Made by a program: the position numbers and the translations under genes. From Herpetosiphonaceae bacterium (GTDB taxonomy: Bacteria; Chloroflexota; Chloroflexia; Chloroflexales; Herpetosiphonaceae): DNA of 33,958 nt. Under the pieces are notes generated by a model that was given only the letters and a program-made list of their open reading frames with translations, searched no databases and was not told where the DNA came from. Below, in pieces: positions 16,004 to 19,664 of the stretch. The DNA is taken from positions 1-33,958 of the forward strand of contig JACCRK010000024.1 in NCBI GenBank assembly GCA_013813565.1, read 5' to 3'. Numbering within the stretch: the stretch's first letter is position 1; every line of letters starts with the position of its first letter.

Positions 16004-16540
16004 ATGTCGCCAAAACAACTGATGAGCGAAGACGAAATTCGCCGCGCTCTGACTCGGGTGGCCCACGAGATTGTCGAGCGTAACGACGGCGCTGGCAAGG
16101 TCAGCCTGGTCGGGATCCATCGCCGCGGTGTGCCGCTGGCCCAGCGCCTGGCCACGATTATTGGCGAGTCCGAAAACGTCACAGTTCCGGTTGGTGAGCT
16201 GGATATCGGCCTGTATCGCGACGACCTGCACTCACGCGGCCCGGCCCCGCTGCTTGGGCGCACCCTGCTGCCCGCCATCGATGGACGCATCGTGGTGCTG
16301 GTCGATGACGTTTTTTATACCGGCAGGACCATCCGGGCGGCGCTGAACGAGCTGAGCGACTGGGGCCGGCCAATCGCCATTCAGCTGGCGGTGCTGGTTG
16401 ATCGCGGTCATCGTGAGCTGCCGATTAGGGCCGATTTCGTCGGTAAAAACATCCCTACCGCCCTGTCCGAGCGGGTCAACGTCGTGCTGAACGAAGTTGA
16501 TCAGGCTGATGATGGTGTGTGGATTGTGCAAGGGGCCTGA
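16004..16540 (+). CDS. pyrR: PyrR, pyrimidine operon attenuation regulator / uracil phosphoribosyltransferase
   Basis: RNA-binding regulator of pyr operons and, in many bacteria, a weak uracil phosphoribosyltransferase (uracil + PRPP to UMP). The frame begins earlier with a GTG at 15989, but the ATG at 16004 has AAAGGA 6 bases upstream and starts the 178-residue protein of normal family length. The PRPP-binding loop is at 97-110, [14 protein letters not shown], close to the consensus VLVDDVLYTGRT. Residues 60-76 ([17 protein letters not shown]) match the conserved strand and flexible loop of the family. R78-G-P and the basic face around it would touch RNA. It sits inside the operon it should regulate; the cognate RNA element is at 15090-15121. 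Confidence 0.95.
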
Positions 16541-16568
16541 TTTAGTGACCCGTAATGTGCTCAAACCA

Positions 16569-16698
16569 GGCCGCCGCAAAGGCTCGTCGCGCTTTCTTGA
16601 GCTGGTCAAGGCGCAGCATAAGAAAGCGCCGCGCCAGCAGCATTCCCGGCGCCGCAAAGGCTCATCGCGCTTTCTCGATCATATCAAGGCGCAGCAGA
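16569..16698 (+). repeat. Two in-frame 47-base direct repeats before the AAA+ gene
   Basis: Copy 1 at about 16571-16617 and copy 2 at about 16652-16698, offset 81 bases (27 codons). In the frame of the following gene they read RRKGSSRFLELVKAQ and RRKGSSRFLDHIKAQ. Of seven base differences five are at third codon positions and most residue changes are conservative (E/D, V/I, H/Q), which suggests the repeat is translated. The open frame continues back to a GTG at 16545, which would add 71 basic residues to the AAA+ protein. Against this, the last codons before 16758 are atypical and 16758 has its own GGAG. An inverted repeat GCGCTTTCTT/AAGAAAGCGC (16589-16598 and 16620-16629) could also form an RNA stem. 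Confidence 0.6.
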
Positions 16699-16757
16699 CG
16701 GTCGCGCCAGCCACTACCAAGAAACCTGGAGAGGCCAGGGTACACGAGCGGAGATTT

Positions 16758-19664
16758 ATGACTGAAGATCTTGAACTCAATAGTTTGCTCACCCGCTGTG
16801 CGGTCGATCTGCGGGCACGGGTTGAGCGCGAAGAGCTCCGCCCGGCCTTCAACCGCGAGGCTGAAATCAGTACGGTTATTCAGCTGCTCACGTCGAGTGA
16901 ACATCTGCATCCGATTGTTCTCGGCAAGGCGCGCTCCGGCAAAACTGCGCTGGCCCACGAGCTGGCGCGGCGGATTGTGGCTGGCGATGCGCCCGAGTCC
17001 CTGCGCGAGCTGAATATCTATGAGGTCTCGCCGGCCTCGCTGCTGGCCGGCCTGCAGTTCGGCGAGGGCTGGCGGGCCAATGTTGCCACGCTGTTCAATA
17101 AGCTCAGCGAGCTTGGGCCGGTCCTGATCTTTATCCGCGATGTGCACGCGGCGGTTGGCGGCGGCGTCAAGCGCGGCGATGATGATGACGATGATCTCGC
17201 CGCGGCGCTGGAGTCGAGCCTGCGCGATAGCCGCATTAAGGTGATCGCCGAGGCTCGCCCGGATCGCTGGAGCGCCATCGCCGCCGACCGCGAGGCGTTC
17301 GCCGACCTGTTTGCGCCGCTGCATCTGCCCAGGCTGCTGCCCCCGGATGTCGCCGAGATTTTGCGCCAGGTCTCCGAGCGCGTCAGCGCCCGAACCAGCA
17401 TCACGATCGAGCCCGGCGCCCAGGCCACGGTGCTGGATGTGGCCGGACGCTTTATTCTGAACCAGGCGTTTCCGGGCAAGGCGATTGAACTGCTGGAGGA
17501 GGCCGTCCTGCTGGCCGAGCGCGAAAAGGCCACGCGGCTGGAGCACGAGCATATTGTCACGACCTTCGGCACCCGCACCGGGCTGGCCAAGCTGCTGCTC
17601 GATGAAAACGAGCCGTTCGATGAAAATGCCCTCCGCCGCTCGTTCGGCGAACGGGTGCTGGGCCAGGATCCGGCTGTCGCCGCGATGGTTCAGAAGCTGG
17701 CGCTGCTCAAAGCCCGCCTGCACGACCCATCGCGGCCAATGGGCGTGTACTTTTACCTCGGGCCAACCGGAGTCGGCAAGACCGAGCTGGCTAAAACCCT
17801 GGCCGCCAGCCTGTTTGGCAGCGAAGATCGCTTTGTGCGCTTCAATATGGCCGACTACAGCGGCGAGTTCGACTACGCCCAGCTGTTCGGCCGCTCGTGG
17901 GGCGACAGCGATGCCGAGCGGCGCGGCAAGCTCACGATGGCGCTGATCAATTTCCCGTTTGCTGTGCTGCTGCTCGATGAGTTCGAGAAAGCCCACCGCT
18001 CGATCTTCAATCGGTTCCTGCAGCTGTTCGATGAGGGTCTGCTGGTCAACGCGATGGGCGAAGAGGTCAATCTGCGCAACACGATCATTATTATGACTAG
18101 CAATTTTGGCGCGTCGATTGTTCAAGGTGAGACCTGGGGCTTCTCGGCCCGCGAGGGGATCGACGCGGTCGAGCGGCGGGTGCTGCGCGAGACCGAAGAG
18201 TTTTTCTCGCCCGAGTTCATCAACCGCCTCGATGGCGTGACCTTCTTCAAGCCGCTGTCCCAAAGCGATATGCGCCAGATCGCCGCCCGCGAGCTGCGCA
18301 AGCTCTTCGAGCGCGAGGGCTTGGTGCGGCGCGGCGTACAGGTGGAGCTTGACGATGCGGTGCTCGATGTGCTGCTCAAACACGGCTACAGCATTCGCTA
18401 CGGCGCCCGCTATCTGAAGCGCCAGATCGAAAAGATGGTCACCTATCCGCTGGCCTCCACGCTGCTGGCCCGCCCAAGCCAGGCCGGCGGCCTCCTGCGG
18501 CTGTACGTGGCCCGCGAACACATCAAGGCCGCCTGGGTCACCGAGGAGGACGAGCCGCTGCCAGCTCCGGCCGAGGATACCGAAAGCGGCCAGCCGAAAA
18601 CGGTCGAGGAGGCCGCCGAGGTCGTCCTGCAGCTGGGCGCCCGCCTGAAGACGCTAACCGAAACCCTGAATCTGCTCCAGGCCCGCGATCGCCAGGCCGA
18701 GCTGATGGCCGAGATGTCCAGCCCCTCGTTCTGGGATGACCCGGCCAACGCCCAGCTCCAGCTGGCCGACCTGGGCGAGGTCGCCCGCCGGGTGGACCGC
18801 TGCGACGATCTGCTGCGGCTGTACGACGAGGTCGAGCATCTGCTTGAGCGCGTGCGGGACCGCCGCGAGCGCCGCATGTTCCCCGAGCTGCTGCGGGTTG
18901 CCACGCGCATGCAGCGTGAGCTGCGCTTTGCCGAGCTGGAGCTGTGCTTTCGCACCGAGGAGGACTGGAACGACGCCTATGTTGTGGTTGAAAGCAACGC
19001 GGCCGGCCTGCGCTGGGTCCGCCAGTTGACCACAACCTACATCGCCTGGGCTCAGTCGAAGCGCCTGGAAACCGAGGTGGTTGAGGAGACCACCCCCGAC
19101 GATCTGCAGGCCCGCGTGACGCTGCACATCAGCGGCTCCGGCGCCTACGGCCTGCTCAAGGGCGAGATGGGCACCCACCGCATCGCCGAGACCAGCGGCG
19201 AGTCCCGCCAGAAGGCTATCACCCAGGTGCTGGTGATGGTCCTGCCGGTTCCGACCGAGACGATGGCCAAGCTGCCGGTGGTCGAGCTTGATGTTGCCTG
19301 CACACCGGTCCACGCCGTCGGGCAGTTTCTGCGCAAGCTCCGCGCCTCGGCCCGGGCGATCCATACGCCAACCGGTGCGGCCGCGCTGGCGACCGCGCCA
19401 ACCGAGCGTGCCGCCCGCGAGCTGGCCCTGCAGCTGCTCCACGCCCGCCTGCTGTGGAGCCGGCTCGATGGACCGCTAACCGCCGCCGCCGATCCGTGGG
19501 GATCGGTGGTACGCACCTATCACTTTGCCAAGCGCTCGTACATCAAAGATCCCCGCACCAACGTCACCAGCACCAACCCGCGTGAGGTGCTAAACGGCGG
19601 GCTTGACATATTTATTGAGGCGGTGCTGCGTGAGCGATCCAAGGACTTGAACGCGAGCTGCTAG
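16758..19664 (+). CDS. Clp/Hsp100-type double AAA+ ATPase fused to a degenerate release factor 2-like region
   Basis: A 968-residue protein from the ATG at 16758 (GGAG 4 bases upstream), or 1,039 from the GTG at 16545. Residues 1-280 form a Clp-like first AAA+ domain: Walker A G56-K-A-R-S-G-K-T63, but Walker B reads FIRDVH (126-131) where FIDE[IL]H is usual, so hydrolysis is doubtful. Residues 285-600 form an intact-looking second AAA+: Walker A G335-PTGVGKT, Walker B LLLDEFEKAH (404-413), sensor 1 IIMTSN, Arg490 in FINRLD, sensor 2 G549-AR. The D2 pore loop GYVG is replaced (SWGDSD). No Clp N-domain or middle coiled coil is seen. Residues about 618-960 follow release factor 2 along its length: SSPSFWDDP, GAYGLLKGEMGTHRI, HTPTG, and KDPRTNVTSTNPREVLNGGLDIFIEAVL. 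The SPF and GGQ motifs are lost (TSGE; V854-G-Q). It lies between pyrR and pyrB. Role unknown; I infer ribosome-linked remodelling. Confidence 0.9.
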   Translation: MTEDLELNSLLTRCAVDLRARVEREELRPAFNREAEISTVIQLLTSSEHLHPIVLGKARSGKTALAHELARRIVAGDAPESLRELNIYEVSPASLLAGLQFGEGWRANVATLFNKLSELGPVLIFIRDVHAAVGGGVKRGDDDDDDLAAALESSLRDSRIKVIAEARPDRWSAIAADREAFADLFAPLHLPRLLPPDVAEILRQVSERVSARTSITIEPGAQATVLDVAGRFILNQAFPGKAIELLEEAVLLAEREKATRLEHEHIVTTFGTRTGLAKLLLDENEPFDENALRRSFGERVLGQDPAVAAMVQKLALLKARLHDPSRPMGVYFYLGPTGVGKTELAKTLAASLFGSEDRFVRFNMADYSGEFDYAQLFGRSWGDSDAERRGKLTMALINFPFAVLLLDEFEKAHRSIFNRFLQLFDEGLLVNAMGEEVNLRNTIIIMTSNFGASIVQGETWGFSAREGIDAVERRVLRETEEFFSPEFINRLDGVTFFKPLSQSDMRQIAARELRKLFEREGLVRRGVQVELDDAVLDVLLKHGYSIRYGARYLKRQIEKMVTYPLASTLLARPSQAGGLLRLYVAREHIKAAWVTEEDEPLPAPAEDTESGQPKTVEEAAEVVLQLGARLKTLTETLNLLQARDRQAELMAEMSSPSFWDDPANAQLQLADLGEVARRVDRCDDLLRLYDEVEHLLERVRDRRERRMFPELLRVATRMQRELRFAELELCFRTEEDWNDAYVVVESNAAGLRWVRQLTTTYIAWAQSKRLETEVVEETTPDDLQARVTLHISGSGAYGLLKGEMGTHRIAETSGESRQKAITQVLVMVLPVPTETMAKLPVVELDVACTPVHAVGQFLRKLRASARAIHTPTGAAALATAPTERAARELALQLLHARLLWSRLDGPLTAAADPWGSVVRTYHFAKRSYIKDPRTNVTSTNPREVLNGGLDIFIEAVLRERSKDLNASC

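Follow-up and report, generated by a model that had tools for sequence, protein, structure and literature searches.

A Clp-type ATPase carrying a release factor 2-derived module that lacks the codon-reading and catalytic motifs in Herpetosiphonaceae and other Chloroflexota

The window, by which we mean the whole 33,958-nucleotide stretch of DNA analyzed here, comes from a Herpetosiphonaceae-like genome (G000; 4.17 Mb, 76% complete). All coordinates below are window positions on the forward strand. Between 16004 and 22227, pyrR (16004..16540; given for context only), a fusion gene, pyrB, and pyrC run in the same direction. The fusion gene (16545..19664) encodes a 1039-residue protein in which a Clp-type AAA+ half (D1-D2) is joined to a module derived from release factor 2 (RF2). 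Its full open frame spans 16497-19664, and the most plausible start within it is the GTG at 16545, directly 3' of the pyrR stop at 16540. In the H. aurantiacus homologue, an ATG overlaps the pyrR stop. Pfam models AAA_2, ClpB_D2-small, and PCRF matched the protein, no Pfam match to a Clp_N domain was found in it, and the NCBIfam matches (ClpA, ClpB, and prfB) each fell under their own cut-offs. The nearest named relatives are Herpetosiphon species, at 67-68% identity across ~1,000 residues. A basic N-terminal segment, RRKGSSRFL..(I/V)KAQ, is doubled in the window (16571-16618 and 16649-16696, with 41/48 bases identical) and present as a single copy in Herpetosiphon. An Rfam scan of the fusion region gave no match, and PADLOC returned generic AAA matches only.

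The RF-like part of the protein is ~330 residues long and has the complete RF2 domain order. A phmmer search against the PDB aligned the entire module with E. coli RF2 (E 2e-29), and the NCBIfam prfB model (TIGR00020) scored 151 bits (E 4e-44), far below its cut-off of 370. Pfam, alignment, and an AlphaFold2 model place the helical bundle of RF2 domain 1 at 18642..18956, with a conserved FWDD at 18729-18740. In RF2, recognition of the first stop base falls to the tip of helix alpha5 (PMC3418547); here, that tip is ESNAAG (18990..19007), the RF2 motif GG(T/V)(E/D) being lost (...SNAAGLRW in the window vs. ...GGTEAQDW in RF2). G-T-H-R-I (19170-19184) and then A precede the SPF place, where ETSGES (19188..19205) stands instead of the RF2 recognition loop. 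Domain 3, the GGQ domain, is degenerate (19224..19472), with VGQ replacing GGQ at 19317..19325 and HTPTG at 19362-19376. The domain 4 segment, WGSVVRTY...IKDPRT...G.LD.FI.A.L, lies at 19491..19625 and, together with an E-x-G-x-H motif, is the best conserved portion of the module in our alignment.

These readings bear out most of what a first-pass annotation of the same DNA had described. It had reported ETSGES at the SPF place after THRI, V-G-Q for GGQ at exactly the codons where we find it, and a recognition loop about two residues shorter, a shortening that the alignment shows in Herpetosiphonaceae. However, it had also described a gap-free line-up as far as HxPTG, which does not hold: besides the shortened recognition loop, the alpha5 tip has been altered or deleted, and ~8 residues are missing from the switch-loop linker relative to RF2. 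It missed the parallel motif losses in the ATPase half, to which we return below.

To place the window's module in its family, we aligned 19 fusion proteins from Chloroflexota with 12 genomic RF2s and E. coli RF2, whose numbering is used for residues of the module. Orthologues with intact motifs, which the first-pass annotation had named as evidence against its reading, were absent: SPF, GGQ, and a complete alpha5 tip were each found in 0 of the 19 aligned fusions. Intact ordinary RF2 is present in fusion-bearing genomes, and that of the window's own genome (L002) has both SPF and GGQ. The annotation had further asked whether VGQ is fixed among orthologues, and it is not. Across the family, the site reads VGQ, DGY, NGH, RGR, AGM, NGL, or SGE, so that G250 has become V, D, N, R, S, or A and Q252 has become Y, H, R, E, M, or L. 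The second glycine is mostly kept, and the glutamine occurs in the window alone. Because G250 and Q252 have been replaced in many ways, the glutamine of the window's VGQ is, judging from the alignment, a coincidence or a relic. We therefore rejected VGQ as a new fixed motif, given that the site varies freely and that, in a sister subclade, the whole domain is either missing or has other sequence in its place. The GGQ domain is absent altogether in G401, G403, G413, and, found later, G433, and unrelated, partly low-complexity sequence takes its place in G092, G196, and G172.

Domains 1 and 2/4 persist even in the subclade without a GGQ domain. Despite identities of 25-35%, the fusions share invariant residues: E195, G197, H199, R324, Y326, D335, R337, T338, G351, and F356 occur in every one of the 16 that we counted. 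Among 69 positions invariant in 13 RF2s, the fusions keep 1/20 in domain 3 vs. 16/49 elsewhere (Fisher p 0.015). The RF2-invariant R150, R154, R203, and N255 are lost, as are T215-S216-F217 and R278-S279-Q280 of RF2, and W319 of the switch loop survives in the window's protein and in its subclade (8/16 fusions overall). New conserved arginines appear in the domain-1 helices at RF2 positions 65, 69, 74, and 101. We infer that R150, R154, and R203 are putative rRNA-facing positions in RF2; their loss weakens the case for canonical A-site binding and, together with that of N255, means that the normal RF2 ribosome pose is not implied.

The module is nonetheless under strong purifying selection, in line with the first-pass annotation's expectation of a constrained C-terminus. 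NG86 dN/dS between Herpetosiphon pairs was 0.00-0.05 for domains 1 and 2, 0.00-0.06 for the domain 4 segment, and about 0 for AAA D2; the GGQ domain was the least constrained, at 0.03-0.12, so that every module domain has a dN/dS of at most about 0.12 within Herpetosiphon. Pairs with the window's own gene were set aside because their dS was saturated or uneven. The fold, which the annotation had held to be kept, is also predicted with confidence to be that of RF2. AlphaFold2 modeled the window's module at pLDDT 88 and pTM 0.84, with free RF2 (1gqe) as the top PDB match in Foldseek (TM 0.69), although the underlying alignment includes true RF2 sequences and thus favors an RF2-like model. The G401 module, which has no GGQ domain, was modeled from fusion sequences only (pLDDT 85, pTM 0.80) and matched RF2/RF1 structures at a lower TM of about 0.5-0.6.

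The ATPase half has also departed from its relatives. We judged its motifs in 18 fusions by comparison with ClpC, ClpA, and ClpB references. In D1, the Walker A is kept (GKARSGKT, 16923..16946), and the Walker B reads FIRDVH (17130..17147; FIDEFH in ClpC), its catalytic glutamate missing in 18/18 fusions. In D2, the pore-loop region LFGRSWGDSDAERRGKL (17883..17933) has lost the GYVG motif, which occurs in 0/18 fusions, three of which have the loop deleted. Nine unfused Clp relatives from the same phylum all keep the D1 Walker B glutamate, and most of them keep GYVG or a close variant. The other D2 motifs are retained in the window, namely Walker A (GPTGVGKT, 17760..17783), Walker B (LLLDEFEKAH, 17967..17996), the arginine-finger segment (PEFINR, 18210..18227), and sensor-2 GAR (18402..18410), and they are kept in all fusions but that of G011, whose D2 retains GAR alone. 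There, the Walker A, Walker B, and arginine finger are degenerate, which makes this locus (L079) a candidate pseudo-ATPase. At the motif level, D2 is thus a working ATPase site, and D1 is not.

The position of the ClpP-docking tripeptide is occupied by WGF in the window (18135..18143) and by IGF or LGF in ClpC of the fusion-bearing genomes. Such a tripeptide (WGF, IGF, LGF, or IGL) is found in 17/18 fusions, as in same-genome ClpC, and not in the ClpB reference. Loops of this type dock onto hydrophobic sites of ClpP (PMC9035409), and ClpP genes were present in 4/4 genomes tested. WGF is unusual in its leading tryptophan and could be mere inheritance from ClpC. The AAA half, probably ClpC/ClpA-derived, is by motif tests no canonical Clp unfoldase, and the missing D2 pore loop makes the usual threading of substrates into ClpP less likely.

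The two halves appear to share a history. The RF modules form one clade (bootstrap/SH-aLRT 100/100) joined to RF2 and not to RF1, and the AAA parts form one group (SH-aLRT 100) in a quick tree that contains long branches. Both trees recover the same two subclades, which indicates that the halves traveled together; the trees are most simply explained by one fusion event, after which both halves were inherited as a unit. A contig scan with exact short patterns found the full fusion in Herpetosiphon only, and another search added other Chloroflexota members. The fusion occurs in 15/158 Chloroflexia genomes and, outside that class, in seven genomes from an even sample of 400 across the phylum (one of them cut by a contig end), and it is therefore old and patchy. 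When the RF module was searched against phage and plasmid sequences, the matches were only distantly RF2-like, at 23-27% identity. In G150, what is left of the AAA-RF2 fusion is riddled with stop codons (L074, G150:C2:1685468-1686832), an instance of real decay in one genome. In one subclade, the N-terminal 190 residues of L070, L071, L072, and L108 resemble two HicB/UPF0150-like repeats; a Pfam search of these extensions gave a sub-threshold UPF0150 match in L072 and none in L071.

The gene lies between pyrR and pyrB in four Herpetosiphonaceae loci, and pyrR and pyrB adjoin directly in G309, G400, G134, and G166. This indicates that the fusion gene entered the pyr operon within Herpetosiphonaceae; in G309, it sits on another contig than pyrR-pyrB. 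Because of this move, the pyr link is unlikely to be a clue to general function, and no gene neighbors were conserved beyond Herpetosiphonaceae.

Several known systems resemble the fusion in part. It matches RF2 (prfB, TIGR00020) in domain order, fold, and sequence over about 330 residues but differs in having no SPF, GGQ, or alpha5 tip, in having lost many RF2-invariant residues, and in being joined to a Clp ATPase. PrfH (RF-H), which is without domain 1 and has GGQ (PMC1586002), is likewise a diverged bacterial class-I release factor relative that exists beside normal release factors, yet its pattern is the opposite, as the fusion keeps domain 1 and loses GGQ. With ClpC/ClpA and the Hsp100 family, the fusion shares the D1-D2-D2small arrangement, the D2 Walker A and B, the arginine finger, sensor 2, and the ClpP-type tripeptide; by contrast, it is without Clp_N, the D1 Walker B glutamate, and the D2 GYVG, and it ends in the RF2 module. 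Dom34/Pelota, a GGQ-less relative of eRF1 that acts with an NTPase and binds the ribosome, is not homologous to RF2, but it too is a release factor relative without GGQ paired with an NTPase. There, the two are separate proteins and ribosome binding has been shown. We regard the fusion as an Hsp100 ATPase that has gained a new accessory domain.

The reading we prefer, to which we give roughly even odds (about 0.5), is that a Clp ring has been repurposed, with D2 as its motor, the RF2-derived module as a non-catalytic docking domain, and perhaps ClpP as partner. The fusion protein would form a hexamer in which D2 would burn ATP and D1 would mainly bind it, and the ring would dock on ClpP. Through domains 1 and 2/4, the RF2 module would bring the ring to, or capture, a specific partner, which would then be remodeled or handed to ClpP. 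This partner could be one that already binds RF2 domains 1 and 2/4 (the L11 stalk or the surroundings of the A site), although one acquired after the fusion seems about twice as likely. The pattern of loss and retention suggests that RF2 was kept intact by selection after losing its reading and cutting parts, turning a release factor into a docking part. The first-pass annotation had come to a similar conclusion, a module kept for binding and unlike random decay. Purifying selection, the absence of SPF and GGQ from all orthologues aligned, and the predicted fold support its view of a retained module without the two motifs, whereas binding is something that we infer, and R150, R154, R203, and N255 are gone as well. 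The docking reading is further weakened because G011 has lost its D2 ATPase motifs and because no gene neighbor is conserved across families.

A ribosomal site of action is attractive: in RF2, domain 1 binds the L11 stalk and W319 stacks on A1492 (PMC5378476), and the window's subclade has retained this tryptophan. When ribosomes stall, a GGQ-less module could occupy their A site or L11 stalk, as Dom34/Pelota does in eukaryotes, and the AAA ring could pull out or degrade a ribosomal factor or the nascent chain. Domain 1 and the domain 2/4 core, which persist in fusions that have no GGQ domain, would fit such ribosome rescue, and the ClpP-type tripeptide would fit degradation of a nascent chain. 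However, R150, R154, R203, the alpha5 tip, T215-S216-F217, and R278-S279-Q280 have been lost along with the codon-reading elements, W319 is gone in half the family, and six modules per ring, each bearing domain 1, could not all engage one ribosome. We regard rescue as rather unlikely. We are more doubtful still that the protein is a translation-linked AAA+ machine of Chloroflexota, in which a release factor relative without codon reading or catalysis, equivalent in bacteria to Dom34/Pelota, forms part of a Clp ring with ClpP as a potential docking partner, such that a single protein recognizes and dismantles stalled complexes.

The module might instead bind no ligand and serve as a structural or oligomerization appendage that stabilizes the ring or links rings. 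Retained positions such as E195, G197, H199, R324, D335, R337, and T338 do look like a fold core, and the new domain-1 arginines might point toward the ring or toward a second copy of the module. Still, a 330-residue domain under such constraint would be costly for a structural role, and Clp rings assemble without an RF2-type domain, which makes this improbable in our view. An accidentally joined, eroding RF2 fragment would account for the GGQ domain being the least constrained part, its replacement or deletion in some lineages, and the stop-ridden copy in G150, but we consider it very unlikely given that no RF domain has a dN/dS anywhere near 1, open frames in at least 19 genomes, and invariant residues at such low identity. 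Nor is a still active release factor with altered motifs credible, even though the window's protein has all RF2 domains in order: no member has GGQ, the entire GGQ domain is missing in four genomes, and a normal RF2 exists beside the fusion, so we give this next to no weight. On the evidence of its sequence, then, the RF2 module of the fusion is no release factor, and neither is it in decay.

An RF2-AAA fusion was not described in the open-access papers searched, a collection with incomplete coverage. Under the docking reading, a translation release factor would have been taken over by a protein-remodeling ATPase as a non-catalytic domain. With a defined set of motifs lost from each half, the fusion also offers a natural separation of function, distinguishing the residues that make the RF2 fold (kept) from those for codon reading and catalysis (lost). 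The Herpetosiphon gene, which is in a culturable host, is a clear candidate for a new link between a translation factor and Clp proteolysis. Another Chloroflexota family, represented by L033 and similar loci among L027-L039, consists of CHAT-Clp_N-AAA-AAA fusions; in L033 (Pfam CHAT, E 5e-21), a caspase-like domain is joined to a Clp ATPase that has Clp_N.
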